DNA from: Neoarius graeffei | Taxonomy: Eukaryota; Chordata; Actinopteri; Siluriformes; Ariidae | Length of the DNA: 64,000 nt | NCBI RefSeq assembly: GCF_027579695.1 | Contig: NC_083577.1 | Location: forward strand, 57,735,783 to 57,799,782 | Reading direction: 5' to 3' | Shown here: positions 1 through 58,361 of the stretch, in pieces | How positions within the stretch are numbered: the first letter of the stretch is position 1 | How the letters are laid out: each line of letters opens with the position of its first letter | Notes under the pieces: model-generated | Databases searched by the model: none | Told to the model about the DNA's origin: nothing | Seen by the model: the letters and a program-made list of their open reading frames with translations, nothing else | Translations under genes and position numbers: made by a program

Positions 1-611
1 TGGAACAATGAATTCTGAATTATACCAGCGAATTCTAAAGGAAAATGTCAGGACATCTGTCCATGAACTGAATCTCAAAAGAAGGTGGGTCATGCAGCAA
101 GACAACGACCCTAAGCACACAAGTCATTCTACCAAAGAATGGTTAAAGAAGAACAAAGTTAATGTTTTGGAATGGCCAAGTCAAAGTCCTGACCTTAATC
201 CAATGGAAATGTTGTGGAAGGACCTGAAGCGAGCAGTTCATGTGAGGAAACCCACCAACATTCCAGAGTTGAAGCTGTTCTCTCTGGAGGAATGGGCTAA
301 CATTCCCCCAAGCTGGTGTGCAGGACTGAACAACAGTTACCGGAAACGTTTAGTTGCGGTTATTGCTGCACAAGGGGGTCACACCAGATACTGAAAGCAA
401 AGGTTCACATACTTTTGCCACTCATAGATATGTAATATTGGATCATTTTCCTCAATAAATAAATGACCAAGTATAATATTTTTGTCTCATTTGTGTAACT
501 AGGTTCTCTTTATCTACTTTTAGGACTTGTGTGAAAATCTGATGTTTTAGGCCATATTTATGCAGAAATATAGAAAATTCTAAAGGGTTCACAAACTTTC
601 AAGCACCACTG
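1..611 (+). mobile_element. Tc1-like transposon, family A, copy 1 (5' end outside the window)
   Basis: The right end carries the terminal repeat of this family (reverse complement of CAGTGGTGCTTGAAAGTTTG) followed by TA, the Tc1/mariner target dinucleotide. The window opens inside the transposase gene. Three other copies are at 6223-7829, 9378-11799 and, inverted, 31838-33440. Confidence 0.9.
2..394 (+). CDS. Tc1-like transposase, C-terminal part
   Basis: The reading frame is open from the window edge to the stop and covers the last third of a roughly 340-residue Tc1 transposase. The second catalytic Asp is visible in QQDNDPKHTS, and the third acidic region in SPDLNPMEMLWKDLK, typical of the DDE/D family that cuts and pastes at TA sites. 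At the codon where copies at 7244 and on the minus strand near 32420 carry TGA, this copy has CGA (Arg), so this part is intact. Whether the whole gene is intact cannot be judged because its N-terminal part lies outside the window. Confidence 0.85.
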   Translation, partial: GTMNSELYQRILKENVRTSVHELNLKRRWVMQQDNDPKHTSHSTKEWLKKNKVNVLEWPSQSPDLNPMEMLWKDLKRAVHVRKPTNIPELKLFSLEEWANIPPSWCAGLNNSYRKRLVAVIAAQGGHTRY

Positions 612-703
612 TAAGCTTCAATAGTAAGTACTTAAAATGCCTACCTAACATTTGATTTGTGGCAATATATAGCCTAATAAACACTGAAAATAAAATCTAA
701 TTT

Positions 704-1055
704 CCTTCCATCCATTATCTGTAGCCGCTTATCCTGTGCAGGGTTGCGGGCAAGCTGGAGCCTATCCCAGCTGACTACAGGCAAGAGGCGGGGTACACCC
801 TGGACAAGTCGACAGGTCATCGCAGGGCTGACACAGAGACTATTCACACTCGCGGTCAATTTAGTGCCACCAATTAACCTAACTTGCATGTCTTTGGACT
901 GTGGGGGAAACCGGAGCACCCGGAGGAAACCCACACAGGCATGGGGAGAACATACAAACTCCGCACAGAAAGGCCCCCCGTTGGCCACTGGGCTTGAACC
1001 CAGAACCTTTTTGCTGTGAGGCGGCAGTGCTAACCACTACACCACCGTGCCACCC
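704..1055 (-). repeat. tRNA-like SINE, older diverged copy (1)
   Basis: The minus strand reads from a tRNA-like head (GGTGGCACGGTGGTGTAGTGG) to the tail TAATGGATGG. It is bounded by an imperfect 12-bp direct repeat, AAAATCTAATTT at 692-703 and AAAATCTTATTT at 1056-1067. The tail differs from the GAGAT tail of the younger copies. Confidence 0.85.
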
Positions 1056-2360
1056 AAAATCTTATTTGCGGTTGTTTATTAGCCTATTGCTAAAGAAAAG
1101 TTAACTTGCTAGATAATGTGAGATTTTTGTGTCTTGTGTGGTAACAGTTGTGATCCCAAGTAACCTCTCATTTGAAGCTGCAAATCCTGAGTTTCCTTGG
1201 TTATTTGACGGATATACAAAAATTCTTCAGCATCAGCAGCTCTGTGTAAGCCCGGTCTGGTGAGAAAACATTTCCAGTTCAATCTCGTATACAGAATTTA
1301 ATGATTCGTGCTTGTTTCAGATTATCAGAGTTTTAATTGTTTTAATGCTTAATGCCAGCAAGTGCTGAGAGAGAGAGAGAGAGAGAGAGGAAAGGGAGAC
1401 CAGCAGCAGGCTAAAAGGAGCAGGTTTGATGGAGGTTAATAGTTTTTTTTTTTTTTTTTTAAATGGGTTCTACTGTAGCTTTCAGTTGAGACTTTTTTGG
1501 GGTCATTTTATGAAGGGATGTTGCAGATTTATGCTGATAAGTAAATGTCTGTTTTGTTGCCCCTTGTAAGTTACACTTATTCTGATTTGAACCAACTAAA
1601 ACTGAACAAATCTGTTGTCTGTGTAAATGAGTAACATTCTTAGGACAAATGACTTTAATAAAGGAGAGATTCTAAGTCACAAAGCCATTGCTCTGTAACT
1701 GTTGTAAACTGATGGATAACACTTTATATTCGTAGATCTGTGCTAAAAAGAAATTGTGATGACATCTACTACAGGGCCTTATGTGCTTTACTGTAAAAGT
1801 AATGACAGACATTGAGGTTGAGGTTTTTTTTTTTTTTTTTTTTACCCGTAAGGGGGATGCATGCCCTTGTGCCCCCTCACCCAGTCATGCTGATGGCTCA
1901 TCCCCCCTCCCCAACACAAATGTCAAGTGATGTACCTGCTGAGGAATATAATGGCTTTCTATGCAGAGTTCATTGAGGCTCAGTAGATTAAATGTATCAC
2001 TGGTTTGTCAGAACACTATTAATAAAACAACAAAACACAAGTATTGAAGCATAAAAAGTACCTGTCTGAATCACAAGATTGCAAATGTCAAGTTGAATTT
2101 TGAAAAGGGGTTGTATGCCAACACTACATTTGAGGGTACTTGTTTCTGAAAAGAATTATTCGGCACTTCTCTTGCTAATTTTATCCAGTGGCACTACACA
2201 TTCATGGTACAAATAGATGTTGAAAAGGGCTTTTTTTAAAAAACAATATAAAACGTTAAATATATAATGTTTGGGGTTTGTTTATACAAGTCATAATGGA
2301 TTTATTGTATGTTTAACACGCGTTAATGAATAATGATGATTTTTTTTTTCTGCTTCAAAG
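1056..2360. other. gtf2f2 intron or upstream sequence with simple repeats
   Basis: No gene is visible. It holds a GA run at about 1368-1390, T tracts near 1441-1460 and 1827-1843, and AT-rich unique sequence. It precedes the first + strand gtf2f2 exon and is probably intron. Confidence 0.5.
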
Positions 2361-5300
2361 ACCAGATTACACTTGAAGGCATGGTGGTACAACGTGCTGA
2401 ATGCAGGCCTGCAGTCAATGAGAGTTACATGAAGTTAAAGAAGTGAGGATATCCAGTGGTGTTTAGACAACTAGTATTCAGTCTTCAAACCTGCAAAGTT
2501 TAAATTGGTAGTAACTTAAGCATATTGTTTGCAGGCTACAGATTAAGGAATCGATGAAGCCACTCCGGTTGTCCCAGCAGCTGGAGAAAGCAATTACCAC
2601 CAATTACAAACCTGTGTCTAACCACACCTATAATGTAGGTGTGCTTCTGTAGTTTTGTCTTTGTGTTTATCTGTGTTTTGCACGTACTTACATGGGTTCT
2701 CTACTTACAGGTGGAATATGAGAAGAAAAAGAAAGAGGAAGGAAAGAGAGCCAGGGCTGACAAGCAGAAAGTTCTGGAAATGCTCTTCTCTGCTTTCGAG
2801 AAACACCAGTATTACAACATTAAGGACTTGGTGGAGATCACTAAGCAACCTGTGGTGAGTCACAATGTTCTTGAGTCAGCCAGACTCATGTGGCCCAACC
2901 AATATGTTCAAAAATAATGATTATATACTTGGTGTCAGACTCCAGTATTCAGTCAGTCAATGTAATATTCTACTTTTTATGCTGCAACTAAATACAAATT
3001 AAATGTAATGCAGGAGAAATTAAGCTCCCTCCAGGACATAAATTTGACAGTGTAATGGGATTGAATCCTTACATAATTTCCGAAAGACTTCATCACAGAA
3101 GAGATGAAAGAGAAAGAATCATTTGTAATGTAAGCAGTCGATGATGAGCTGTGTACATGCATATTCTGTATCAATAGATTTACACCCCACAGGCTTGTAC
3201 CTCTGTGCCTTGCAAACCCCACAGCTCTGTAAATGGATGTGAGCCAGTGGTTGGTGCAGGGAGTTTAAAAATGTGTCTTAAAATAGTTCTGGGTTTTGTA
3301 ATGCAGAGCAGGGATTTAATTGGTTTCTGAACATGACCTCTGGATAAGATGCTTGTTTTGATTTTATGCATGAGAGGTCCAAATTTCCGAATCCAATTTA
3401 CCCTTCCTGTGCTGGTTTAATGCGCATAATTGGTTTTATTTTGTTTGTAGCTCAGTATTAAAGCACAGTAACTTGCGAGTGCTGTATTTTGAAGGATCAC
3501 AATGATATCTAAAGCTTTAACAGTAGAATCCAATACAATCATTTATTCATCTTCAGTGACTGCTTTATTCTGGTCAGGGCTGAGGTGGATCTGGAGAATG
3601 TTGGGAGTACACCCTGGATGCGATGGCAGTCTATCACAAGGCTCATCTCATTCATCTCATTATCTCTAGCCGCTTTATCCTTCTACAGGGTCGCAGGCAA
3701 GCTGGAGCCTATCCCAGCTGACTATGGGCGAAAGGCGGGGTACACCCTGGACAAGTCGCCAGGTCATCACAGGGCTGACACATAGACACAGACAACCATT
3801 CACATTCACACCTACGGTCAATTTAGAGTCACCAGTTAACCTAACCTGCATGTCTTTGGACTGTGGGGGAAACCGGAGCACCCGGAGGAAACCCACGCGG
3901 ACACGGGGAGAACATGCAAACTCCGCACAGAAAGGCCCTCGCCGGCCATGGGGCTCGAACCCAGGACCTTCTTGCTGTGAGGCGACAGCGCTAACCACTA
4001 CACTACTGTGCCGCCCTATCACAAGGCTGATGCATACATTTCTAAAATACTGAAGCACTAATTTAATTGGAATCCTAATCCACCACTCTAGGCTTTACTG
4101 CTCCTGAGCTACTGAGCACCTTGTAGATGTTCAGAATGTTGTAATATCAATTCATATTAGTATTTGTAACAAATATGGCTTGATATTAAAAGGCACTGAG
4201 AGAGTTGCTCTGGATCCTTGTATTATAATGCAGTGCGCCATGATTAGAGCACAGTTTCTCCTCAGGTTGGCTTTGTACTGCTCTTTGATTGCATTATCAT
4301 TTGTTAAGGGTTCTTGCCGTTCTCAAGTATAACCACCACATGAATACTGTCTAGGTTTCTCCCTACTTGAGATGGAAATGTCATGAACTTGGATGACTCG
4401 TATCAATAATACTGAATTATGAAACTAATCAGGAGCATAGAAACTTTTAAAGCCTATGGTCGTCAAAACCATGCTAACTACTGACCCCCAGTGGACACTG
4501 TTTGTAATTACAGCAAATTGCTGTAAATAAAATTTAAGTGTATAGTAGTATACATAAGAATATTCCTTGATATTGTCTCAAAGCGTGTGTTCACTGCTTC
4601 AGATGGGTTAAATGTAGAGGATGAATTTCACTGTGCTTGAGTGTGCATGTGATAATAAAGGACTCAATACTTCTTCTTAACCAATCCCACCCACTCCCTG
4701 TTATTTTAGATTATTTAACAAATCGGCAATTTAATCTACACTGACCCAAACCAGGATAAAACATTTGCTGAAGATGGACCGAGCAGCCCATTGCATTTGA
4801 CATGCTCCCATGTCAAAGTGGTATTGCTTTGTCTCATGAGGTTCATATCTGACCACCTACTCCTGCAACCTCTTTTCTTGTGTCCTGTGAGATTGCAGTC
4901 TTGACCTACACTTCTAGTTCAAGAAACCGTTAAATAAACAGCATAAGAGCCATACAGAATCACATTCATAAAATATGCTTATGATTTGAAATAATGACAT
5001 TTCTGGAGGATTTTGGGAACATTATGGATGCATAACTGTATCATATACATGTTTTATCAAACAATTGCATGCACAATGGAAAGTTATTCTTTTGCAGGGA
5101 GCGTTGCTGAAACTCCTTTCATTTATTGTTACAGAAGCAATTTTTAACAATAATGGAAAAAAAACCCCACACTGCAGTAGTCACCGGTCATATTAATGGT
5201 GTTCATGTAAAAATTTGTTGCTGTGGTGACCGAATGACATCGAGCTCCAGATATCACCTGTTCTTGGGGGCTTGAATGAACAGTTGTTGCCAGCTGGAAG

Positions 5301-5600
5301 CCAGCTATTTTGAAACCAGTCACTCTATCAGGGAGCAAAGCTTTATAGATCCTGAAGAAGGATCATCGTGAGCATTTTTAAACCAGCTGCTTGATTATAG
5401 CACCATTTTTATGGATAAACACATGACTCCTGATTGCTAACCAGGTCAAACATTCCTAGATTTACCTGAAAGAAATTCTGCGTGAGATTGCAGTTTACAA
5501 TCCTAGAGGGCCTCACAAAAGCACCTGGGAGCTGAAACCAGAATATCGCCACTACCAAGAAGGTGAAAATGAAGAAGAGGAAGAAGAAAAAATGGTTTAA
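2361..5600 (+). CDS. gtf2f2: General transcription factor IIF subunit 2 (TFIIF beta, RAP30), C-terminal exons
   Basis: TFIIF beta binds RNA polymerase II with the alpha subunit, brings it to the preinitiation complex and acts in the nucleus. Four exons are visible: 2361-2442, 2535-2634, 2711-2854 and 5460-5600. Every border has AG acceptors and GT donors, and the phases join correctly (1, 0 after the 100-base exon, 0). The product includes LEGMVVQRAECRP, KPLRLSQQLEKAITTNYKPV, ADKQKVLEMLFSAFEKHQYY and TWELKPEYRHYQ, conserved in the dimerisation region, linker and C-terminal winged helix of vertebrate GTF2F2. The protein ends in an acidic tail at the TAA of 5598-5600. No break is seen in these exons. 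The last intron (2855-5459) holds a SINE. The 5' exons are not on this strand inside the window; matching exons occur inverted at 8947-12235. Confidence 0.93.
3530..3643 (+). repeat. Diverged fish repeat fragment hosting a SINE
   Basis: The stretch around GGTGGATCTGGAGAATG and GTACACCCTGGATG looks like a diverged copy of a widespread fish interspersed repeat. The SINE of 3644-4016 was inserted into it, duplicating TATCACAAGGCT. A similar fragment lies at about 23485-23555. Confidence 0.4.
3644..4016 (-). repeat. tRNA-like SINE, full length (2)
   Basis: The minus strand shows a head with A-box-like and B-box-like (GGTTCGAGCCC) sequences, and a GAGATGAG tail. A perfect 12-bp target duplication TATCACAAGGCT flanks it at 3632-3643 and 4017-4028. 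It sits in the last intron of gtf2f2. Confidence 0.92.
4029..5459. other. gtf2f2 last intron, unique part
   Basis: I see no gene, RNA or recognisable repeat here. The intron ends in the acceptor ATTCCTAG at 5459. A 64-residue minus-strand reading frame at 5144-5338 resembles nothing known to me. Confidence 0.5.
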
Positions 5601-5742
5601 CGTTTACCATGACCATAGCTGCACTTGTACACTAAGGTGACATTTTTGTTTATTTTGTTTGCTTTTTGTCAGTTTTGTTTGGGCAATAGATGCCATTTAG
5701 AATAATTTTGTGTGAAATGGGATAGTTCTGAACAGAAATGGA

Positions 5743-5748
5743 AATAAA
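5743..5748 (+). promoter_or_regulatory. Poly(A) signal of gtf2f2
   Basis: AATAAA lies 143 bases after the gtf2f2 stop codon and is followed by a T-rich stretch, which fits a short 3' UTR. Confidence 0.7.
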
Positions 5749-6222
5749 ATGTACTGCTGGGATTAATAACTTTTTTGTTTTTCGTGCACTACTGTTAAAC
5801 ATACCAGGACATTTACTCAACACATGGATTATGTTTAAATTTAAGTGTAATTAGCGCATTTAAAAAAACAAAACCCACAAGATACTGTTCATTTTCAACT
5901 AAAGGTGCGACACAAACCCAAAGTCTGGTGTAAGATGTGCAAGATTTGGAGGATTATTTTGTATCTCAAGCTTCTAAATATGTTCAGGTACATCACACTG
6001 TAACACTGTAAATGAAGAGAAATATTCTTCAGCTTTTGGATGCATTTCAAGGACACCTATTCTGAGTTTCAGACAACTTGCATGCATGCCTTAAAGGAAA
6101 ACTCCACAATGAAACAGTAAATATGATTACCTTATTATATTACAGATATTTGCGATATGAAATGCGTGTACAGATTCTAGTGCTAATCTGTTGGTGGATG
6201 CAGGACATTGCTAGTGCAGATA

Positions 6223-7829
6223 CAGTGGTGCTTGAAAGTTTGTGAACCCTTTAGAATTTTCTACATTTTAGCATAAATATGACCTAAAACAACATCAGAT
6301 TTTCACACAAGTCCTAAAAGTAGATAAAGAGAACCCAGTTAAACAAAGGAGACAAAAATATTATACTTGGTCATTTATTTATTGAGGAAAATGATGATAC
6401 AATATTACATATCTGTGAGTGGCAAAAGTATGTGAACCTCTAGGATTAGCAGTTAATTTGAAGGTGAAATTAGAGTCAGGTGTTTTCAATCAATGGGATG
6501 ACAATCAGGTGTGAGTGGGCACCCTGTTTTATTTAAAGAACCAAGATCAATCAAAGTCTGATCTTCACAACACATGTTTGTGGAAGCGCATCATGGCACG
6601 AACAAAGGATATTTCTGAGGACCTCAGAAAAAGCGTTGTTGATGCTCATCAGGCTGGAAAAGATTACAAAACCATCTCTAAAGAGTTTGGACTCCACCAA
6701 TCCACAGTCAGACAGATTGTGTACAAATGGAGGAAATTCAAGACCATTGTTACCCTCTCCAGGAGTGGTCGACCAACAAAGATCACTCCAAGAGCAAGGC
6801 GTGTAATAGTCAGCAAGGTCACAAAGGACTCCAGGATAACTTCTAAGCAACTGAAGGCCTCTCTCACATTGGCTAATGTTCATGAGTCCACCATCAGGAG
6901 AACACTGAACAACAATGGTGTGCATGGCAGAGTTGCAAGGAGAAAGCCACTGCTCTCCAAAAAGAACATTGCTGCTCATCTGCAGTTTGCTAAAGATCAC
7001 GTGGACAAGCCAGAAGGCTGTTGGGAAAATGTTTTGTGGACGGATAAGACTAAAATAGGACTTTTTGGTTTAAATGAGAAGTGTTATGTTTGGAGAAAGG
7101 AAAACACTGCATTCCAGTATACAAACCTTATCCTATCTGTGAAACATGGTGGTGGTAGTATCATGGTTTGGGCCTGTTTTGCTGCATCTGGGCCAGGACA
7201 GCTTGCCATCATTGATGGAACAATGAATTCTGAATTATACCAGTGAATTCTAAAGGAAAATGTCAGGACATCTGTCCATGAACTGAATCTCAAGAGAAGG
7301 TGGGTCATGCAGCAAGACAACGACCCTAAGCACACAAGTCGTTCTACCAAAGAATGGTTAAAGAAGAATAAAGTTAATGTTTTGGAATGGCCAAGTCAAA
7401 GTCCTGACCTTAATCCAATCGAAATGTTGTGGAAGGACCTGAAGCGAGCAGTTCATGTGAGGAAACCCACCAACATCCCAGAGTTGAAGGTGTTCTGTAC
7501 GGAGGAATGGGCTAAAATTCCTCGAAGCCGGTGTGCAGGACTGATCACCAGTTACCAGAAACGTTTAGTTGTAGTTATTGCTGCACAAGGGGGTCACACC
7601 AGATACTGAAAGCAAAGGTTCACATACTTTTGCCACTCACAAATATGTAATATTGGATCATTTTCCTCAATAAATAAATGACCAAGTATAATATTTTTGT
7701 CTCATTTGTTTAACTGGGTTCTGTTTATCTACTTTTAGGACTTGTGTGAAAATCTGATGATGTTTTAGGTCATATTTATGCAGAAATATAGAAAATTCTA
7801 AAGGGTTAACAAACTTTCAAGCACCACTG
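6223..7829 (+). mobile_element. Tc1-like transposon, family A, copy 2 (complete ends)
   Basis: The element is 1607 bases long with terminal repeats beginning CAGTGGTGCTTGAAAGTTTG and is flanked by TA on both sides (6221-6222, 7830-7831). It encodes a transposase gene with one nonsense codon. Confidence 0.95.
6593..7609 (+). pseudogene. Tc1-like transposase with one in-frame stop
   Basis: Translation from MARTKDISEDLRK gives the Tc1 layout: N-terminal paired-type helix-turn-helix (about residues 1-110), a DDE catalytic domain starting near NVLWTDKTKI, the second Asp in QQDNDPKH and the last acidic residue in SPDLNPIEMLWKDL. Length without the stop would be 338 residues, normal for the family. 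Codon TGA at 7244-7246 replaces CGA (Arg) seen in copies at 1-611 and 9378-11799, a likely CpG transition. The inverted copy at 31838-33440 shares the same stop. I preferred the start at 6593 over 6515 because it matches the usual transposase N-terminus. The copy cannot make full-length protein. Confidence 0.9.
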
Positions 7830-7907
7830 TATGTTTAACAGGTGAAAAAATTTCAGGGAACTCAAACAGAAGTGATCATTACCTTTCACTGTTGGCTCCT
7901 TTTCTCA

Positions 7908-8276
7908 TTCTCACCTCATTATCTCTAGCCGCTTTATCCTGTTCTACAGGGTCGCAGGCAAGCTGGAGCCTATCCCAGCTGACTACGGGCGAAAGGCGGG
8001 GTACACCCTGGACAAGTCGCCAGGTCATCACAGGGCTGACACATAAACACAGACAACCATTCACACACACACCTACGGTCAATTTAGAGTCACCAGTTAA
8101 CCTAACCTGCATGTCTTTGGACTGTGGGGGAAACCGGAGCACCTGGAGGAAACCCACGCGGACACGGAGAGAACATGCAAACTCCACACAGAAAGGCCCT
8201 CGTCGGCCACGGGGCTCGAACCCGGACCTTCTTGCTGTGAGGCAACAGCGCTAACCACTACACCACCGTGCCGCCC
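7908..8276 (-). repeat. tRNA-like SINE, full length (3)
   Basis: The minus-strand copy ends at its head in GGGCGGCACGG (8276). The flanks carry a near-perfect duplication, TTGGCTCC followed by T tract and CTCA, at 7892-7907 and from 8277. Confidence 0.88.
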
Positions 8277-8946
8277 TTGGCTCCTTTTTCTCACTCACAA
8301 TTTGTTTAGCAATGTTCAGTATCATACTGATGATCGACTGATTCAACACGGAAAAACAACAAAAGCTTGACTCCAGGTTCCAGAGGACAGTGCAGCTCTA
8401 TGATTAATTTGCACAGAGTTTTGGGGGGGATGGTGGGCAACCAAAGCAGTCGACGGGATTGATGGGAATCCAATTGATTGCTTTGGTTGAAAACACAGTG
8501 GCTTTAACTGAGGACAGCAGAAGCATGGAAGTTGAATCTTTGGACCCTGATTGGTGAGCACAGTATACAGACAGAGGTGAGAGAGTTAGATAGACTAAAA
8601 GATTTAAAGTGCTGCTGCACTGATCTCTTTAGGGAACGATGAAATAAGGGCCATTTCCCACTGGCACAACTATCAACAAGTGGCTGAATGGCATTGTAGG
8701 TAATGCAGGAAACTGTTAACCAAAGAGAGAACAGACCAACATGTCCATGAAAGACGTTTAAACAAAAAATGTCAATCTTGGACCCCACTGAATATCACAC
8801 ATTAAGCATAAACATTGATCTGGAAGCCTTCCATGGTGGATCTCTCCTTTAATGGCTACCTTGCTGCACACCACTACTGTAGATTCCATTCAATTTTATT
8901 TAAGACTCCTCCTTTCCATTAGAAGTGTTTTGATGTCAAGCCTCAC
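8277..8946. other. Unannotated stretch between SINE and inverted gtf2f2 exon
   Basis: Several short reading frames occur but none resembles a known protein. If the inverted gtf2f2 exons are a real block, this is where its next exon would be expected on the minus strand, and none is visible. Confidence 0.4.
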
Positions 8947-9091
8947 CTGAGGAGTTCTCGGTAAAGATGGCCAGGGTCTGATCCTCCACAGTCTGCATGG
9001 TGAACGGATGCTCTCTGGGCGCTTGCACTGACACGGTCCTCTCCCCCAAATGTTCAACCAAACTCAGCTCTTCATTCAGATTGAATGATAC
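8947..9091 (-). pseudogene. gtf2f2: gtf2f2 N-terminal-half exon, inverted
   Basis: Read on the minus strand, 48 open codons include VSFNLNEELSLVEHLGERT and SVQAPREHPFTMQTVEDQTL, matching the TFIIF-beta dimerisation domain. The exon ends TCA-G before the donor GTGAGG. Its phase (one leftover base) fits exactly the start of the + strand exon at 2361, which begins with the last two bases of an Asp codon. It is on the opposite strand, so it cannot be spliced to that exon in the arrangement shown. The residues expected just before VSF (about six in vertebrate proteins) are not visible and the preceding acceptor does not fit the phase of the exon at 12002-12072. Confidence 0.85.
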
Positions 9092-9741
9092 CTTGAGACA
9101 CAACAAATCACACAAACTCTGCCATGTTCTGTTACAAAGTCAAATGCATTTTCCAAGACTTCTGGTGTAAATAATGGTTCAATACGCTGCTCTTATATAA
9201 TAAATCACCAGTTACATCAGGTGGCAAACTGAAATCATTCAAGTCACACTTTTTTCCTGAAGCCATATAGTTCACATCATTTAATGCAATTGTAAATATA
9301 GACAAAAAATATAGATACCAATATATCGGACATGATTAAAAATGAAATTTTTAGCTTCTAGCCACTTTATTAATTTACAGTTGTGCTTGAATGTTTGTGA
9401 TCCCTTTAGAATTTTCTATATTTCTGCATAAATCTGACCTAAAACAGCAGATTTTCACACAAGTCCTAAAAGTAGATAAAGAGAACCCAGTTAAACAAAT
9501 GAGACAAAAATATTATACTTGGTCATTTATTTATTGAGGAAAATTATCCAATATTACATATCTGTGAGTGGCAAAAGTATGTGAACCTGTAGGATTAGCA
9601 GTTAATTTGAAGGTGAAATTAGTGTCAGGTGTTTTCAATCAATGGGATGACAATCAGGTGTGAGTGGGCACCCTGTTTTATTTAAAGAACAGGGATCTAT
9701 CAAAGTCTGATCTTCACAACACATGTTTGTGGAAGTGCATC

Positions 9742-10759
9742 ATGGCACGAACAAAGGAGATTTCTGAGGACCTCAGAAAAAGCGTTGTTGATGCTCATCA
9801 GACTGGAAAAGGTTACAAAACCATCTCTAAAGAGTTTGGACTCCACCAATCCACAGTCAGACAGACTGTGTACAAATGGAGGAAATTCAAGACCATTGTT
9901 ACCCTCCCCAGGAGTGGTCGACCAACAAAGATCACTCCAAGAGCAAGGCGTGTAATAGTCGGCGAGGTCACAAAGGACCCCAGGGTAGCTTCTAAGCAAC
10001 TGAAGGCCTCTCTCACATTGGCTAATGTTCATGAGTCTACCATCAGGAGAACACTGAGCAACGACTGTATGCATGGCTGGGTTGCAAGGAGAAAGCCACT
10101 GCTCTCCAAAAAGAACATTGCTGCTCGTCTGCAGTTTGCTAAAGATCACATGGACAAGCCAGAAGGCTATTGGAAAAATGTTTTGTGGATGGATGAGACC
10201 AAAATAGAACTTTTTGGTTTAAATGAGAAGCGTTATGTTTGGAGAAAGGAAAACACTGCATTCCAGCATAAGCACTTTATCCCGTCTGTGAAACATGGTG
10301 GTGGTAGTATCCATAGTTTGGGCCTGTTTTGCTGCATCTGGGCCAGGACTGCTTGCCATCATTGATGGAACAATGAATTCTGAATGATACCAGCGAATTC
10401 TAAAGGAAAATGTCAGGACACCTGTCCATGAACTGAATCTCAAGAGAAGGTGGGTCATGCAGCAAGACAACGACCCTAAGCACACAAGTCGCTCTACCAA
10501 AGAATGGTTAAAGAAGAATAAAGTTAATGTTTTGGAATGGCCAAGTCAAAGTCCTGACCTTAATCCAATGGAAATGTTGTGGAAGGACCTGAAGCGAGCA
10601 GTTCATGTGAGGAAACCCACCAACATCCCAGAGTTGAAGGTGTTCTGTACGGAGGAATGGGCTAAAATTCCTCCAAGCCGGTGTGCAGGACTGATCAACA
10701 GTTACCGGAAAAATTTATTTGCAGTTATTGCTGCACAAGGGGGTCACACCAGATACTGA
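9742..10759 (+). pseudogene. Tc1-like transposase, frameshifted and with a stop
   Basis: This is the same transposase as at 6593-7609. An extra base near 10311 (the copy reads ATCCATAG where others read ATCATGG) shifts the frame after KHGGGSI, and TTA is changed to TGA at 10384-10386. The C-terminal part reopens at 10457-10759 with QQDNDPKHTS and SPDLNPMEMLWKDLK. Confidence 0.88.
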
Positions 10760-10775
10760 AAGCAAAGGTTCACAT

Positions 10776-11587
10776 TAGGGCTGGGAATATTAACGCGTTA
10801 ATCGCGATTAGATTAATGTAAATTGTGATCGCGAATATTTTTTTTAATCGCGATCAGAGTTTACCAGCATTTTCCGCACTTCTACCATCCACATGCAGCT
10901 CCTCTGGTTGTATTAATTAAACTCATTTTCGGTTAAACGCGCTATTTCGAGTTTGCTAGTCTTTTGTTCCTTCTACGCATCCGTAGGCAGCTCGAGCGGA
11001 AGCGTGTGGTTTCCATCGAGTCGTTGGCATTGGCATGGAAGGACACGCTGTTGTCTTCAGTTTAGTCCTCTTTTGTGATGGATAAGCAACGGTTTTCTGG
11101 ACCTCTGAATGGTTTGTTTGAATTTAAGTTATGAAGTGCTTTGTATGGTTATTTATTTTTTTATGGTGACATTTTATTTTTGAAGAAGAGAGTGGCCTGA
11201 CATTACATTGTTCATAGTCAAATCTGAAGTAGAGACAAGTGGGTCTACATGGCACTTTTTCTGATTTTTTTCTTGTGTTCATTTATTTACAATTTCTCCA
11301 AAGTAGCCAGTCATTCATTCTTAATACTTGTTTTCCTTTCTCTACACTCTTTTTGAAATAAAAAAGGCCAAAAGATAAATTCTGCTTTTGTCTCTGTCTT
11401 CATTTTATTCCAATTTAAGACACAATGGTCAGAAATACTTTGCATTGTGGGTTTAACTTTAGATTCGAACGGTCTTACTGCAAAATATCAATTTTACACA
11501 TGCAAAGTAAATCAAGATTAATCGCGATTAACTATGAAATTTCTGAGATTAGTTGCGATCAAGAAAATTAATCTTTTGACAGCCCTA
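10776..11587. mobile_element. Non-autonomous hAT element
   Basis: The 812-base element begins TAGGGCTG and ends CAGCCCTA and is flanked by a perfect 8-bp duplication GTTCACAT (10768-10775 and 11588-11595), the hallmark of hAT transposons. Palindromic TAATCGCGATTA motifs lie close to both ends (10799-10810, 11519-11530). No transposase is visible inside, so it depended on another copy for movement. It landed in an existing Tc1-like transposon and is therefore younger than it. Confidence 0.93.
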
Positions 11588-12001
11588 GTTCACATACTTT
11601 TGCCACTCGCAGATATGTAATATTGGATCATTTTCCTCAATAAATAAATGACCAAGTATAATATTTTTGTCTCATTTGTTTAACTGGGTTCTCTTTATCT
11701 ACTTTTAGGACTTGTGTGAAAATCTGATGATGTTTTAGGTCATATTTATGGAGAAATATAGAAAATTCTAAAGGGTTCACAAACTTTCAAGCTTCACTGT
11801 ATTTTTGTTATATTTATGATTCTGAAGAAAGTGGCTTTAAAACATCACTGAATGTCTGTCTGTTGATGAAATAAATACTCACCATTGTTCTTCCTTGTTG
11901 TCTTGTAGAGGTGGAGGAAAAAGAGGTTGGGATGGAAGTCAGAACTATTCTGACAAAAATACAGGATTGATGAGGCTGTGTATAAGGGGAATGATGCTTA
12001 C

Positions 12002-12235
12002 TTGGCTATTTTCAGTTTGCCAACTCCTCATCCAGATGCTTTTCCCCATTGTTGGGCTAGATACTTAGGAATCTTTTGGGGAAGAAAATGCAGGACTACA
12101 CTATTTTTACGTTAACCAATTTTTTTCAAATAGTCACAAGTACAACAGTAAATAATCTAGCCAATTTAATATTTTGAAAACTACAGAGAGTGAACGAACC
12201 TTCACCAGCCACACACTGATGTTTTGTTTCGCTCG
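12002..12235 (-). pseudogene. gtf2f2: gtf2f2 first exons, inverted and decayed
   Basis: Two exon-like pieces lie on the minus strand. 12200-12235 reads AKQNISVWLVK before a GT donor. 12002-12072 starts after an AG acceptor, reads PKYLAQQWGKASG, then an in-frame TGA, then GVGKLKIA before GTAAGC. They match consecutive segments of the TFIIF-beta N-terminus (the WLVKVPKYL region). The TGA sits where the family has Arg, and one following residue is missing, so this part cannot encode a normal protein as it stands. They are collinear with the exon at 8947-9091 on the same strand, with a Tc1 copy in the intron between. Confidence 0.78.
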
Positions 12236-12257
12236 CTAAATAACTAACACACACAGT

Positions 12258-12480
12258 ACCAGACAAAAGTATGGACACAACTACACATTTCTCATAGAAA
12301 TTACATCCTGGACCCGAATAACATATTTTCCAGAAGCTTCAGTCATGAGGATATCGATAATGTCACTTCCAGTATTTTCCCACTGATTGACATGTGTTGT
12401 CAAAATGGTAAACTGGTTCAAAATTAAAATTCTTTTGATTAATTTGTGTATTTTTTGTGGATGCGTGTCCATATAATATA
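12258..12480. mobile_element. Tc1-like terminal fragment, family C type
   Basis: CAGTACCAGACAAAAGTATGG resembles the end of the element at 42738 (CAGTACCAGTCAAAAGTTTGG). Only this end is recognisable; the right limit is approximate. Confidence 0.45.
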
Positions 12481-12633
12481 AAGAATGTTATACGTTGGCT
12501 TGAAGATATGAAGTTTGTTACGCTCATTCGTGAAATATCTTCACCACCATTTAATATCCTCTCGCTCTCGTATAAATAAAATATACAGTGGCATGCAAAA
12601 GTTTGGGCACCTTTACTGAAAATGTCTGTTACT

Positions 12634-12875
12634 CATCTCATTATCTGTAGCCGCTTTATCCTTCTACAGGGTCACAGGCAAGCTGGAGACTGTCCCAGCT
12701 GACTATGGGTGAAAGGCGGGGTACACCCTGGACAAGTCGCCAGGTCATCACAGGGCTGACACATAGACACAGACAACCATTCACACTCACATTCACACCT
12801 ACGGTCAATTTAGAGTCACCAGTTAACCTAACCTGCATGTCTTTGGACTGTGGGGGGAAACCGGAGCACCCGGAG
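12634..12875 (-). repeat. tRNA-like SINE, 5'-truncated (4)
   Basis: The tail side is intact but the tRNA-like head is missing; the copy stops within CTCCGGGTGCTCCGG. A perfect 12-bp duplication ATGTCTGTTACT flanks it (12622-12633, 12876-12887). Truncation on the head side with an intact duplication is the usual outcome of target-primed reverse transcription. Confidence 0.92.
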
Positions 12876-13104
12876 ATGTCTGTTACTGTGAACAGTTAAG
12901 TGAGCAGAAGATGAACTGATCACCAAAAGGCATAAAGGTAAAGACGATGCATTTCAGCGTTTTCTGCAAGATTTGTGTAGTATTTTTGTTTTGTACAATT
13001 GGAGAGTGAAAAACGAAAAGGAACACCATGCGAAAGTTTGGGCACCCCAATACATTTGAGTTCTCAGGTAACTTTTACCAAGGTTCCAGACCTTAATTAG
13101 TTTA

Positions 13105-14222
13105 TTGAGCTGTGGCTTGTTCAAATTCTTCGTTAGGAAAGGTCAGATGGTGCAGATTTCAAAGCTGTATAAATTCTCTGACTCCTCAAACTTGTCCCTA
13201 AAATCAACAGCCATGGGCTCCTCTAAGCAACTCCCTTGCGTTCTGTATAATAAAATAATTGATGCTCACAAAGCAGGAGAAGGCTACAAGAACGTAGCAG
13301 TGTTTTCAGGTAGCTGTTTCCTCAGATTGTAATGTTATTAAGAAATGGCAGTTAACAGAAACAGTGGAGATCAAGGTGAGGTCTGGAAGATGAAGAAAAC
13401 TTTCTGGAAGAACAGCTCGTTGGATTGCTAGAAAGGCAAATAAAACCCCCTGTTTTACTGCAAAAGACCTTCAGAAAGATTTAGCAGACCCTGGAGTGGT
13501 GGTGCACTGTTCTACTATGCAGCGACACCTGAACAAATATGACCTTCATGGGAGAGTCATCAGAAGAAAACCTTTCCTGTGTCCTAGCCACAAAATTCAG
13601 CGTCTGAAGTTTGCAATGAACATCTAAATAAGCCTGATGCATTTTGGAAACGAGTCCTGTGGACTGATGAAATCAAAATAGAACTTTTTGGCCACAATGT
13701 GCAAAGGTATGTTTGGAGAAAAAAGGGTACCAAATTCCAGGAAAAGAACACGTCTCCAACTCTGAAGCATGGGTGTGGATTGATCATGCTTTGGGGTTGT
13801 GTTGCAGTCAGTGGCACAGGGCACATTTCATTGGTCGACGGAAGCATGGATCCGAATAAATACCAGCAAATTCTGGAAGCAAACATCACACATCTATAAA
13901 AAAGTTGAAGTTAAAAAGAGGATGGGTCCTACAATAAGTTGATGATCCAAAACACACCTCAAAATCTACAGTGGACTACCTCAAGAGACACAAGCTGAAG
14001 GTTTTGCCATGGCCCTCACAGTCCCCTGACCTAAACATCATTGAAAATCTGTGGATAGATTTCAAAAGAGCAGTGCATGCAAGACAGCCCAAGAAACTTG
14101 TAGAACTGGAAGCCTTTTGCAGGGACGAATGTGTGAAAATCCCTCAGGTAAGAACTGAAAGATTATTAGCTGGCTACAAAGTGCTTACAAGCTGTGATAC
14201 TTGCCAAAGGGGGTGTTACTAG
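13105..14222 (+). pseudogene. Family B Tc1-like transposase, degenerate
   Basis: Fragments in several frames resemble a Tc1 transposase: KIIDAHKAGEGYKNVA near 13252, NKPDAFWKRVLWTDEIKIE near 13630, the DDE-core stretch at 13699-13899 (VWRKKGTKFQEKN, SGTGHISLVDGSMDP) and SPDLNIIENLWIDFK at 13971-14222. Frameshifts and stops separate them, and the second catalytic Asp region is damaged (ATGATCCAAAACACACC). Confidence 0.85.
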
Positions 14223-14343
14223 GTACAAACTATGCAGGGTGCCCAAACTTTTTTTGCGTTGGGCCCCTTTCCTTTTTTGTCATTTTGAAAATGTAAAAGA
14301 TGAAAATAAAAAAATTGATTTTGCTTAAAATATAAAGGGAATG

Positions 14344-14720
14344 GGCGGCACGGTGGTGTAGTGGTTAGCGCTGTCGCCTCACAGCAAGAAGGTCCTGGGT
14401 TCGAGCCCCGGGGCCGGCGAGGGCCTTTCTGTGTGGAGTTTGCATGTTCTCCCCGTGTCCGCGTGGGTTTCCTCCGGGTGCTCCGGTTTCCCCCACAGTT
14501 CAAAGACATGCAGGTTAGGTTAACTGGTGACTCTAAATTGAGCGTAGGTGTGAATGTGAGTGTGAATGGTTGTCTGTGTCTATGTGTCAGCCCTGTGATG
14601 ACCTGGCGACTTGTCCAGGGTGTACCCCGCCTTTCGCCCATAGTCAGCTGGGATAGGCTCCAGCTTGCCTGCGACCCTGTAGAAGGATAAAACGGCTATA
14701 GATAATGAGATGAGATGAGA
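14344..14720 (+). repeat. tRNA-like SINE, full length (5)
   Basis: Reads GGCGGCACGGTGGTGTAGTGG at the head, has the B-box-like GGTTCGAGCCC, and ends in a GAGAT array. A 13-bp duplication TATAAAGGGAATG flanks it at 14331-14343 and 14721-14733. It was inserted into the family B transposon. Confidence 0.95.
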
Positions 14721-15155
14721 TATAAAGGGAATGAGTCATCTTTTATGCCTTTTGGAGATCATTTCGTCTTCAACTTACTTAACTGTTCACAGTTACAGCA
14801 ATTTTGACCAGGGGTGCCCAAACCTTTACATACCACTGTGTGTGTGTGTGTGTGTGTATAAAAAATATATGACAGTCTTGTAGGGGGGAGATTGTCTCAG
14901 AGAGAATATTTAAAAAAAAAATAGATAAGTTTTATTGAACCATTTTATGTGTTTTTCTACCACTGGTTTCAAAATGATCTGATTATCTGTACCCTTACAA
15001 TTAATATTTGATTACATGGCTTGGACAAAAAACCCCATTCTTTTGCTACAGTGGATTGTAGACAGATGTAGCAGGATCTTCAAAGAGAACATTGCATCCT
15101 CCCTTGTTATTAGCTCTGTGCATGTGGACCAGTTCAGACCACAGATTTTCTTTAG

Positions 15156-15235
15156 GATTCGATTTTATTTATCAAGTGCTTTTAACAATGGACATTGGCA
15201 CTAAACAGATTTACAAAAAATTGGTTGTTTAAGTC
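15156..15235 (-). repeat. LINE 3' tail fragment, L2-like
   Basis: The minus strand resembles the fish LINE tail seen at 56055-56118 (TAAAGCTGCTTTGCGACAAT, AAAAGCGCTGTACAAATAAA), diverged. Nothing upstream of the tail is present. Confidence 0.5.
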
Positions 15236-15338
15236 TTTGCAAAACATGGTGTTTAAGCATTTCTGTGGTGATTCAGAATGCATCAATGATTTTTCCACCA
15301 TATCTTAGAAGAGGTACCTGGTGATTTTTCTTTGTATA

Positions 15339-17013
15339 CAGTGGTATGCAAAAGTTTGGGCACCCCCTGGTCAAAATTGCTGTTACTGTGAACAGTTAAG
15401 CAAGTTGAAAATGAAATGATTTCCAAAAGGCACAAAGTTAAAGATGACTCATTCCCATGGCCAAAAATTTCTATTTTGATTTCATTAGTCCACAGGACTT
15501 GTTTCCAAAATGCATCAGGCTTATTTAGATGTTCATTTGCAAACTTTAGATGCTGAATTTTGTGGCTAGGACACAGGAAAGGTTTTCTTCTGATGACTCT
15601 CCCATGAAGGTCATATTTGTTCAGATGTCGCTGCACGGTAGAACAGTGCACCACCATGGCAGGGTCTGCTAAATCTTTCTGAAGGTCTTTTGCAGTCAAA
15701 CAGGGGTTTTTATTTGCCTTTCTAGCAATCCAACGAGCCGTTCTTCCAGAAAGTTTTCTTCATCTTCCAGACCTCACCTTGATCTCCACTGTTTCTGTTA
15801 ACTGCCATTTCTTAATAACATTACAATCTGAGGAAACAGCTACCTGAAAACACTTTGCTACGTTCCTGTAGCCTTCTCCTGCTTTGTGAGCATCAATTAT
15901 TTTATTATACAGAATGCAAGGGAGTTGCTTAGCCCATGTTTACATTAGACCGTATCAGCGGATCATCAGATTAACGTTTTTAAAACGATTAGTGCACACA
16001 GCAACACCAATACACGATTTGCGTGCACACAGCAATACCAATACACGGATACGCTCGGCTCCGCAGGCATCCTGCGCTCCAAATCACTCCGCCCTGAACA
16101 GCGAGTGCCCTCTGGAGGGTGCGCACTCCGGCCTTGCGCAGTTCACAGAGCACGCGAGTGAAGTGAACAAGCTGTGATTCGGGACTGAGCCGCTGTGTGT
16201 GTGATCCCAGCGCACATCACTTACCACTTGCAAGTGGAAGGATGGCAAGCCTAAAGACAATCATAACTACACAATGGGCAGTATTTGCATCAGTATTTGC
16301 AGTATTTTCATACTTTTATACTTTTTAATGAAAGGTGATACAAGGCGGAAGTCCGTGCCGTTTTTCAGCAGTCGCGTCACATGACCAATGCCAGCGAATC
16401 AGGAAGGTGGATGTCACAGTGACGTTGTCCAATGAGACGCCAGCTAGAGCTCAGCACAGCGTATCCGCGTATTCTCAATGTTTACACAGCACCGGAGCTG
16501 ACACGATCTGGATTGAATACGTGGACGCTGGCGGATTCCCGTTTCCCGGCGTTTCCAGGCGGTTTAATGTAAACGGACAGTGCATCCGCGAAGAAAACGA
16601 GACAGATACAGTCTAATGTAAACGTAGCCTTAGAGGAGCCCATGGCTGTTGATTTTAGGGACAAGTTTGAGGAGTCAGAGAATTTATACAGCTTTGAAAT
16701 CTGCATCATCTGATCTTTCCTAATGAAGAATTTGAACAAGTCACAGCTCAATAAGCTAATTAAGGTCTGGAACCTTGGTAAAAGTTACCTGAGAACTCAA
16801 ATGTATTGGGGTGCCCAAACTTTTGCATGGTGTTCCTTTTCTTTTTTCACTCTCCAATTGTACAAAAAAATACACAAGTCTTGCAGAAAATACTGAAAAG
16901 AAATGTCATCTTTACCTTTATACCTTTTGGTGATCAGTTCATTTTCTGCTCACTTAACTATTCACAGTAACGGACACATTCAGTAAGGGTGCCCAAACTT
17001 TTGCATGCCAGTG
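15339..17013 (-). mobile_element. Tc1-like transposon, family B, copy 2, with a Harbinger-like insertion
   Basis: It is the inverted relative of 12586-14838, with ends CAGTGGTATGCAAAAGTTTG and, on the right, a diverged CACTGGCATGCAAAAGTTTG, flanked by TA. The transposase is badly broken and part of its middle is missing; NKYDLHGRVIRRKPFLC and NKPDAFWKQVLWTNEIKIE are readable on the minus strand at 15283-15699. Confidence 0.88.
15932..16629. mobile_element. Non-autonomous PIF/Harbinger-like element 1
   Basis: The insertion interrupts sequence that is continuous in the sister Tc1 copy. The repeats GTTTACATTAGAC (15938-15950) and GTCTAATGTAAAC (16611-16623) form the inner part of its terminal inverted repeats, and TTA (within CTTAG) is duplicated on both sides, as for PIF/Harbinger. 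It has no transposase and is richer in CpG than its surroundings. Confidence 0.75.
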
Positions 17014-53683: not shown

Positions 53684-54583
53684 ATGTGGTAGTTAATAGT
53701 TTCAACCATTACTTTGTAAACGGAGCGGCACGGTGGTGTAGTGGTTAGCACTGTCGCCTCACAGCAGGAAGGTCCGGGTTCGAGCCCCGTGGCTGGCGAG
53801 GGCCTTTCTGTGCGGAGTTTGCATGTTCTCCCCGTGTCCGTGTGGGTTTCCTCCGGGTGCTCCGGTTTCCCCCACAGTCCAAAGACATGCAGGTTAGGTT
53901 AACTGGTGACTCTAAATTGACCGTAGGTGTGAATGTGAGTGTGAATGGTTGTCTGTGTCTATGTGTCAGCCCTGTGATGACCTGGCGACTTGTCCAGGGT
54001 GTACCCCGCCTTTCGCCCGTAGTCAGCTGGGATAGGCTCCAGCTTGCCTGCGACCCTGTAGAAGGATAAAGCGGCTAGAGATAATGAGATGAGACTTTGT
54101 AAACGTAGGACCAATCTTAGCAGAACAAATCCCGGATCCAGGAACATCTGCTGAAAATCTGGGCAATTTGATAGATAATAATTATTTTTCAATGTTCCTT
54201 ACAGCAGTGGAAGAAAAAGAAATTGTTGATATTGTTGGGAAATGTATGAACAAAAAATCTACCGACTGTGATGACATTGACATGATGATATTGAAAAATG
54301 TTATTGATGGAATATCCAAACCATTCACATATATACTGTATGTAATTTGTCATTTCTAACTGGTACATTTCCAAACAGAATGAAAGCAGCAAAAGTCATT
54401 CCTCTGTACAAAACTGGGAGCAAACACCACTTCACAAACTACAGACCTGTCTCACTACTTCCGCAATTCTCCAAAATTCTCGAAAGACTTTTCAATAACC
54501 GATTGGATAAATTTATTGACAAACATAATCTACTTAGTGACAGTCAATATGGATTTAGAGCACATCAACATCACTGGCTTTAA
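53684..54583 (+). pseudogene. LINE ORF2, start of reverse transcriptase
   Basis: After the LTR element and across the SINE, the LINE frame continues with NSFNHYFVN, then VGPILAEQIPDPGTSAENLG, FLTGTFPNRMKAAKVIPLYK, NYRPVSLLPQFSKILERLF and LLSDSQYGFRAHQHH before TAA at 54581-54583. A short frame change near 54358 separates the first and second pieces. These are the early fingers motifs of LINE reverse transcriptases. Confidence 0.85.
53723..54093 (+). repeat. tRNA-like SINE (12) inside the LINE
   Basis: Full-length copy with a 12-bp duplication ACTTTGTAAACG at 53711-53722 and 54094-54105. Close to the family consensus, so among the youngest copies. Confidence 0.95.
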
Positions 54584-55746
54584 TAGAATTAGTTGAAGAA
54601 CTCACCAATTCCATAGAGCAGAAAAAACATGCAGTTGGAATATTCATTGATTTAAAGAAAGCATTTGATACAATAAATCATGACATATTAATAAAAAAAA
54701 CTGGAATGATATGGCATCAGGGGTAAAGTTTTAAACTGTGTTAAAAGCTATTTAAGTAACAGGAGACAGTTTGTGAAGCTGGGAGATTGCTCTTCCTCAT
54801 GTTTGGACATAACTTGCGGTGTTCCCCAGGGGTCAGTGTTAGGACCAAAGTTTTTTATACTATATATCAACGACATATGTAGTAATGAAGTAATAAAGTA
54901 ATGAAGCTTGTCTTGTTTGCTGACGATACAAATATCCTCTTTTCTGGTGATAATTTAAGGGAACTATTGCAGGAGATCACAACAGAAATAAGTAAATTAA
55001 TAACATGGTTCAACAGTAACAAATTATCATTAAACTTGAACAAATCCAAAGTAATATTATTTGGTAACACCAAAACAAACACACAAATAAATATTCAAAT
55101 AGATGGGGTTATTATAGAAAGAGTTAAGGAAATCAAATTTCTTGGAACAACTATTGATGAAAAACTCAGCTGGAAACCACATATAAAAAACATACAATCC
55201 AAAGTATCAAGAAGTTTTGCAATATTAAACCAAGTTAAACAGTTTCTAGATCACAATTCACTCCAGATTCTTTACTGTTCCCTGGTTTCACCTTATTTAA
55301 GTTACTGTGCAGAGGTATGGGGCAATAATTACAAAAATGCAATACATTCATTATTCATTCTCCAAAAAAGAGCAATAAGGATTATACACAAGGCTGGTTA
55401 TCGGGATCATACAAATACATTATTCTTACAGTCAGAAATACTGAAATTTGCAGATCTGGTGGACTATCAAACAGCACAAATCTTATTCAAAGCAAACAAT
55501 AATCAACTACCACATAATATTCAAAAACTGTTCACTGAAAGAGATGGGAGTTATAATTTAAGGGGTTTATTTAAATTTAAAAATTATAGGGTGCGCACAA
55601 CCAAGAAAAGTTTTTGTATTTCTGTTTGTGGGGTAAAGCGGTGGAACAGTTTAAATGAGGACCTCAAGGGATGTCCAGACATGAAGCGGTTTAAAAAGAT
55701 GTACAAAAATTTGATTTTCATAAGGTATAAGGATGAAGGGGATTAA
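54584..55746 (+). pseudogene. LINE ORF2, catalytic and C-terminal part
   Basis: FIDLKKAFDTINHDIL near 54645 gives the first catalytic Asp. After frame breaks, LVLFADDTNILFSG (54904 onward) contains the FADD catalytic pair. The frame then stays open to the natural stop at 55744-55746, with KLSWKPHIKNIQSKVSRSFA, LPYLSYCAEVWGNNYKN-like sequence at 55280-55340 and WNSLNEDLKGCPDMKRFKKM at the end. Confidence 0.87.
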
Positions 55747-55953
55747 TCATAACTGGCTGTTTATTGTGTAAATTTTCTTTTTTTCTTTTTTGAGTCTTCA
55801 TCTATTTGTTTTGTTTTTATTTTGTTCTCCATTGTGAGTGTGGTATTTGTAGTAAACTTGTGTGTAGACAGATGGATATACACATATAATTAATTATATG
55901 ATATAGTCATAGAGAATTGATATCTGAATAGTTGAAGTAATAAGTAATATACA

Positions 55954-55956
<3 letters not shown>

Positions 55957-56043
<87 letters not shown>

Positions 56044-56113
56044 ATATATACAAATTCTGTAAAGCTGCTTTGCGACAATGTTTATTGTTAAAAGCGCTGT
56101 ACAAATAAACTTG

Positions 56114-56172
<59 letters not shown>
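55957..56172. repeat. AT arrays flanking an L2-like LINE tail
   Basis: AT run (55957-56007), TG run, GTAT units, then AAAGCTGCTTTGCGACAATG and AAAAGCGCTGTACAAATAAA (56061-56113), then a second AT run (56117-56170). The tail is separate from the 3' UTR of the host LINE, which resumes at about 56173. Confidence 0.8.
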
Positions 56173-56173
<1 letters not shown>

Positions 56174-56470
56174 AAGCTCGATAATCAATTTATATTGACT
56201 AAAGTAGAGGGGTGGGATTAAATAAGTTTTTACTTCAGCCCACTCCTTTTCGGACATGTAAACTCAAAACTGCTTAGTGCGTCCTTGTTTGTATTTTTGT
56301 CTTGTTTTCTTTTTTTGATTTTGATATATTATTATTACCTATATTATTTAAGGTTTATTTTCTAATTTAGTGGCTTTTTACGTGTTTTTGTTGCAAATGC
56401 TGTTTTGTTTTTATCTGCTTATTTATTCATTGTTTGTTTACATGTTTGAAATAAACTATCATCATCACCA

Positions 56471-58361
56471 AATCCATTTACTTCCTATATACAGGACACA
56501 GCAATTAGATTGTGTCTTATTAGCCAAGAATTGTGGATGTTTGTGTGGAGAGTGGCTCATTGTAGATGGCAAGTCTCTGTACTCTTCATTTATCTTGAGC
56601 TTCATCTCTGTTGGGGCCACTTGAAGAGCTCTCTTCCTGTACCTGATCACAGGCTTGTTCTGCTCTCAGGACTTGGATTGTCGAGATTGGCAATTAGCAA
56701 AGCAGCAGTGCTTCAGATTACCCTATATTGAGTGGGCATGCTCATCTACTAGAGCTTATTTTCAAAGACGTTTTATTTCATTGATCAGCACAGCAATATT
56801 CTGCCATTCTCAGTACAGATATTTTAAGGATGAAAAACACTGGTAAAACAATACATTCTTCAATTATGGCTATAGCTACGGTCCAAATACAGAACTTATA
56901 TATTCTGACAACACCAAGTTCCTTTAGCATAGTGAATACCCTCATTTGAATGCAATAGTCTTCTTGAACAAATGCATCTAAAGCTTCCGTAACATATTTC
57001 ATATCTCAGTCCTGACATAAATATCTGACCTAAACACAATCTCTCGATTAGTTATGGCTTGGCTAAATCTCAGCATAATCATCCTGAATATTTATTTTAA
57101 TTGAAGAGACAGAATGACAAGTTCAGTCCCCAGAATATAAAATGTCACAGTATAATCGTATACAGTTAGTGATTGGTCCTGACACCTGGTCAGAGATTTC
57201 ACTAACAGATGATGTGTGATGTTCTCATTCCCATCATATCCAGCACTGACCCCAACAGCTGGGTGAAAATAATACAGTTTCTGGCATTAGTCTCCCATCA
57301 AAAATATTTAAAGTTGTAGTTCTCCAAAATCATGTACAATTTCACACCAGAGCACATACTGCACAATCTTTGCATTCTTGGGCTGAATGTAGGGTCATTC
57401 CTCTCCACATTTATCTGGTGTATCTAACTCTGCATTAAATCATGCTGTCTGCAGTGGGTGTGTGGGGTCTGTTAAAACTGACCTTTGCTCATTTGAGTTG
57501 GTGCTAACAGGAAATGCATAACAACTTTGCTATTTCAGGTCAAATATACTGTCATTTCTAAGAATAGAGCAAATTTTAAAAAGCTTCTCAATGTTAGTGG
57601 CTTGGCGAAAGTAGGGTTGTCCTGCTGAATTTGAATGGAATGACACTATGCCTTATGGGATTATCAGTGCTCTCAGTGTTTTCCCAAAATTGGTCAAAAG
57701 CCTATCCTTGGTTTCCTATACACTCAAAGCACTTCTGCCATCCACATGTGTCATTAGTTGTCCTTAAGTTATTCATTCACAACATAGCATCCAGGCAACA
57801 AAGCATATATGCCAATAGAACTTAGCAATTTATTAAGCATTGAAAACACTTACATTCTTATTCAAAAAGTCAATAATGCAAGAAAAAAAAAACAGTGAAC
57901 ACTTTGGTAGAAACAGTTTGCACAAATTTCTTACAGAACTGTAAAATCTGTAGATTACAAGACCATAGACAAAATATATTAAAGTAAAACTTCTATTTGA
58001 ACAAGGCTGCTACTCAAACATTCACATATTTATAGCCACATTAACACAAAACTGGCCTTCATTTGAAATGGGACAGGCAGTTCTTTCAACAAAACCAGTG
58101 GTATGTGCTTATGCTTCTGTTCCTGATCACAAACCACCAAACAGGAAATGTTTGACGTGGTTTACAAAAAGTAGGAAAAATATACCTCTTAGACTTGGAT
58201 ACATTTAAGTGGCTTCCTTCATTGCATTCCCTCCGTGAGAGCTCTTTGAAAGTCCAGGTGGGACAGCACTCTGGCTGAATTCATTAACGCCTCACTCTTT
58301 GCATCACGCACAAACTCGGATAAGATGGTTTGCTTTTGCAGAAAAGTCGTTGTTCTCCAAG
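56471..58361. other. Sequence downstream of vgll2
   Basis: No second gene is recognised. TTTATT at 57828-57833 is a second possible minus-strand poly(A) signal, so part of this stretch may be vgll2 3' UTR. Confidence 0.4.

Follow-up and report, generated by a model that had tools for sequence, protein, structure and literature searches.

How can one gene be read from two blocks on opposite strands? In the window analysed here (64,000 nt, G000:C9:57735783-57799782, + strand, from a 2.34-Gb fish assembly of 38 contigs), exons for the C-terminal half of gtf2f2 lie on the + strand and are followed by exons for its N-terminal half on the minus strand. The gene encodes GTF2F2 / RAP30, the beta subunit of TFIIF, which is a general transcription factor. 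A first-pass annotation of the window described the gene as split. Its preferred reading was that part of the gene had been duplicated in inverted orientation and was decaying, the intact 5' exons lying to the left; an inversion and an assembly error were named as alternatives. The flanks, 100 kb to the left and 40 kb to the right of the window, were also examined; the resulting 204-kb stretch contains no Ns. Positions marked c9 are numbered from C9:57635783 (window position = c9 - 100000). For comparison, we used 60 kb of C18, partly N, around the second TFIIF-beta locus. We hold it almost certain that gtf2f2 is intact and that the minus exons are an old, decayed partial inverted duplicate of its DNA, an unprocessed pseudogene fragment.

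gtf2f2 is complete on the + strand

The C-terminal exons reported on the + strand at 2361-5600 were recovered as four exons, followed by a candidate polyadenylation signal:

2361-2442, +, gtf2f2 exon 5 of 8 (AG acceptor, GT donor; continues the frame of exon 4, which lies 44.2 kb left of the window)
2535-2634, +, gtf2f2 exon 6 of 8 (splice borders and frame)
2711-2854, +, gtf2f2 exon 7 of 8 (splice borders and frame)
5460-5600, +, gtf2f2 exon 8 of 8, with the stop codon (PF02270 domain carried jointly with exon 7)
5743-5748, +, AATAAA, candidate gtf2f2 polyadenylation signal (nearest AATAAA 3' of the stop codon)

A search to the left of the window for exons 1-3 had been recommended earlier. 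When the human protein was compared with the 204-kb C9 stretch by tblastn, + strand matches were obtained at c9 54588-54659, 54772-54846 and 55654-55800, and the exon edges were refined from tblastn matches by eye and by script. It was revealed that exons 1-4 are intact on the + strand at C9:57690370-57691583, which is 45.4-44.2 kb before the window begins. The eight exons measure 69, 74, 19, 145, 82, 100, 144 and 141 nt in order, GT-AG borders were found in 7/7 introns, and the joined exons form an open frame of 774 nt (257 codons and a stop). The gene is thus not split as had been proposed; its first four exons simply lie outside the window.

The joined translation exceeded the Pfam cut-offs for PF17683 (TFIIF_beta_N) and PF02270 (TFIIF_beta), and its alignment with human GTF2F2 spans the full length. 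The human sequence used agrees by eye with PDB chain 29tk_R at residues 54-246. A query consisting of the minus VSF exon and the four + exons matched the same chain, titled 'General transcription factor IIF subunit 2', with E=4.6e-94. The C9 protein resembles GTF2F2/RAP30 in this full-length alignment and in carrying both Pfam domains; it differs in having 257 rather than 249 residues and in the greater length of an acidic stretch close to the C-terminus. A complete frame, canonical splice sites and both TFIIF-beta domains are what is expected of a functional gene. Because its frame is open, the C9 gene is likely to function by ordinary cis-splicing, and no trans-splicing or other unusual mechanism is needed.

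Exon 3 is a micro-exon of only 19 nt (C9:57690728-57690746, c9 54946-54964, +) flanked by AG and GT. The last codon of exon 2 is interrupted after its second base; the micro-exon, which encodes KQQGKTM with the first codon split across the junction, restores the frame. These are the residues that the first-pass annotation had regarded as missing before VSF in the minus block; the micro-exon is present in both the parent gene and the copy, and the C18 paralogue has a candidate for it. Between exons 2 and 4 of that paralogue, two 19-nt AG..GT candidates were found, one encoding KNQGKAE (C18:55542802-55542820, +) and the other containing a stop. The same scan of the C9 parent gave one additional, dissimilar candidate. 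A 19-nt exon of this kind is easily overlooked by gene finders.

Intron 4 (c9 55802-102360) is 46,559 bp long, and 17,249 bp of it (37%) match elsewhere in the examined C9 and C18 DNA, which is a lower bound on its repeat content. Among the open frames listed for this intron, reverse-transcriptase-like and Tc1-like ones were recognised by eye. The corresponding exons of the C18 paralogue are ~10 kb apart. A cluster of repeat units was also observed inside intron 4 at C9:57704669-57717907, with matches of ~0.8-2.3 kb at 90-97% identity. With so long an intron (46.6 kb), so short an exon (19 nt) and an inverted partial copy close by, gene models could go astray; the wrong 5' exons may be joined, or the gene may be called broken.

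The minus block is an inverted copy that includes introns

The minus strand downstream of gtf2f2 carries a partial copy of the parent segment C9:57690404-57692654 (c9 54622-56872), ~2.25 kb. The parent segment and the copy are collinear but inverted, introns included, and match in five blastn pieces of 83-95% identity that extend over window 12234-5876. The features of the copy are as follows:

5876-12235, -, partial inverted gtf2f2 copy, exon 1 fragment to intron 4, transposon-interrupted (blastn, alignments, segment divergences)
12200-12235, -, copy of the 3' part of exon 1 (start codon absent; preceded closely by an in-frame TAG)
12002-12072, -, copy of exon 2 (stop created by CGA>TGA; 3 nt deleted)
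11883-11901, -, copy of the micro-exon, exon 3 (alignment and splice flanks; not recognised in the first-pass annotation)
about 9378-11800, +, Tc1-like transposon in intron 3 of the copy, between micro-exon and exon 4 (Pfam HTH_Tnp_Tc3_2, HTH_SB and DDE_3 for the two Tc1-like elements; absent from the parent)
8947-9091, -, copy of exon 4, VSF... (no stop in the frame; 10/145 sites changed)
7909-8277, +, short interspersed repeat in the intron 4 sequence of the copy (blastn; absent from the parent)
6223-7829, +, other Tc1-like transposon, splitting the intron 4 sequence of the copy (blastn, Pfam; absent from the parent)

The three minus exons recognised earlier were found again at 12235-12200, 12072-12002 and 9091-8947. 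Their reported phase fit also holds: exon 9091-8947 leaves one codon base and the exon starting at 2361 gives the other two. The orientation needs correction. Exons 1-4 of the parent and exons 5-8 in the window are all on the + strand and the copy is on the minus strand, and the two blocks in the window converge tail-to-tail with their 3' sides facing, not head-to-head.

The copy starts inside exon 1 and ends inside intron 4. Parent and copy can be aligned through introns 1, 2 and 3 and into the first part of intron 4, as expected of an origin at the DNA level. Since intact exons 1-4 are present on the + strand and the inverted homology is collinear through the introns, we read the minus block as a partial duplicate. 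A stretch of ~340 bp in the parent (c9 55154-55496) is missing from the copy. The Tc1-like element at 9378-11800 contains a nested insert at about 10776-11587. The short repeat at 7909-8277 is flanked by a near-identical duplicate of ~19 bp, judged by eye to be a target-site duplication, and more copies of the repeat occur elsewhere in the window on both strands.

The inner end of the copy adjoins the downstream flank of gtf2f2, 276 bp past the stop codon. The outer end adjoins a sequence that resembles the end of a further transposon, and a single weak inverted repeat (18 nt at 78%) was found there. No homology was detected past the outer end, where the alignment of parent c9 53884-54621 with window 12236-14343 reached a score of 17 (maximum of 100 shuffles, 30), nor past the inner end, where that of parent c9 56873-57790 with window 4100-5875 reached 19 (shuffle maximum, 27).

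The copy has diverged and carries disabling lesions

Parent and copy differ at 112/1884 aligned sites (~94% identity at aligned sites), besides indels. The exons differ at 19/267 sites (K2P 0.076) and the introns at 93/1617 (K2P 0.060), which gives no sign of exon constraint in the copy, although the sample is small and the value for exons owes much to the highly diverged exon 1 fragment (7/32 sites, against 12/235 in the remaining exons). The copy has no ATG, an in-frame TAG upstream of the exon 1 fragment, a TGA stop and a 3-nt deletion. Because its exons are no better kept than its introns and it carries these lesions, we regard the copy as decayed. The evidence for decay offered previously was half right: the in-frame TGA in place of a conserved Arg is real (CGA>TGA in exon 2), whereas the supposed lack of residues resulted from the unseen micro-exon.

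Ten codons of exon 4 differ between parent and copy, seven non-synonymously and three synonymously. With C18 as outgroup, four of the seven non-synonymous codons are changed in the copy only, in one the copy agrees with C18, and two are not assignable. Of the CpGs in the parent, 9/21 are replaced by TG or CA in the copy; of those in the copy, 4/16 correspond to TG or CA in the parent.

Some features speak against decay. Exon 4 of the copy keeps an open frame with good splice sites, and just 2/90 aligned sites separate exon 2 and the micro-exon of the copy from those of the parent, the 3-nt deletion not being counted. The divergence is also uneven. Exon 1 and intron 1 (window 12073-12235 against C9:57690404-57690553) differ at 24/144 sites, compared with 88/1740 elsewhere (p=1.3e-6), and are ~3x as diverged as the rest of the copy. 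This does not fit a simple clock and suggests either gene conversion, perhaps of the interior, or a history made up of more than one event.

Proposed origin of the copy

The arrangement could be explained by the following steps. About 2.25 kb, beginning within exon 1 and reaching into the first part of intron 4, would have been duplicated at the DNA level together with its introns and placed in inverted orientation ~49 kb downstream, just past the 3' end of gtf2f2. We infer that this occurred in a single event of repair or of replication template switching; break repair or template switching would be the most likely route, although the breakpoints themselves are not telling. The copy, lacking a start codon and the promoter of its parent, would then have decayed neutrally, gaining a premature stop and losing one codon, and would have received three insertions, two of Tc1-like elements and one of a short repeat. 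The copy is presumably without function.

The copy is nothing exotic but an ordinary partial-duplicate pseudogene. Like other unprocessed (duplicated) partial pseudogenes, it keeps introns (here with the micro-exon), is truncated at both ends, has a premature stop and lacks a start codon. Nothing essential sets it apart from the typical case; its only peculiarities are the inverted orientation and the position immediately downstream of the parent. In Katju 2012 (PMC3449122), partial duplicates likewise derive from part of one ancestral gene, and they are said to occur relatively often in the genomes of worm, fly and yeast. The strict definition given there calls for a comparative genomic check as to which of the copies is the ancestral one, whereas the polarity here is taken only from the C18 paralogue and the lesions. 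A genome-wide PF02270 search, which covers the C-terminal domain only, gave four matches at just two loci, on C9 and C18. A literature search on gtf2f2 in teleosts gave nothing on this arrangement, judging by titles.

Alternative readings

A role for the copy is very improbable. The inverted fragment might tune gtf2f2 dosage through antisense RNA or a hairpin made by read-through, or might serve as a gene-conversion partner of the parent 5' exons; the latter idea is hinted at by the uneven divergence. Retention of the fragment specifically as a source of regulatory RNA, with antisense or read-through hairpin transcripts pairing with gtf2f2 transcripts, seems more improbable still. Since the copy is inverted, ~94% identical at aligned sites and so close to the stop codon, read-through transcripts would be complementary to the gene's own exons and introns, and small RNAs derived from pseudogenes are a known subject, for example in rice (PMC2708354). 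However, the copy lies beyond the candidate poly(A) signal at 5743, its exons are not more conserved than its introns, transposons break it, and an Rfam search of window 1-16000 at gathering score gave 0 matches.

Equally poor are the chances of an assembly artefact, in which the assembly would have included the parent 5' exons a second time in inverted orientation, or put an allele in the wrong place. Repeats abound in this region, which makes misassembly plausible. Nevertheless, the 112 differing sites and the indels, together with transposons that the parent lacks, reject a simple artefact; a placement error would not produce the lesions, and the 204 kb are without Ns. A genuine but distant fragment may have been misplaced here by the assembly.

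Least credible is a simple inversion that split gtf2f2 and left the minus exons as its sole 5' exons. The order of exons in the window, 5-8 on + and then 4 to 1 on minus, equals a minus-strand gene with its 3' half inverted, and the exon phases fit; this reading is rejected by the intact exons 1-4 on the + strand left of the window in this assembly, and the minus set has a stop and no start codon. A retrocopy is rejected by the introns in the copy.

Other features near gtf2f2

About 10 kb upstream of gtf2f2, a minisatellite of 21-bp units occupies C9:57675788-57680034, with 202.6 copies within the scanned stretch; the long open frames over it are probably spurious. Near the right end of the window, 59298-59714 on the minus strand matches Pfam Vg_Tdu (E=5.4e-20) and is an exon of a vestigial-like gene (vgll). 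The adjoining minus frame at 58743-59273, which has no Pfam match, appears by eye to continue it.
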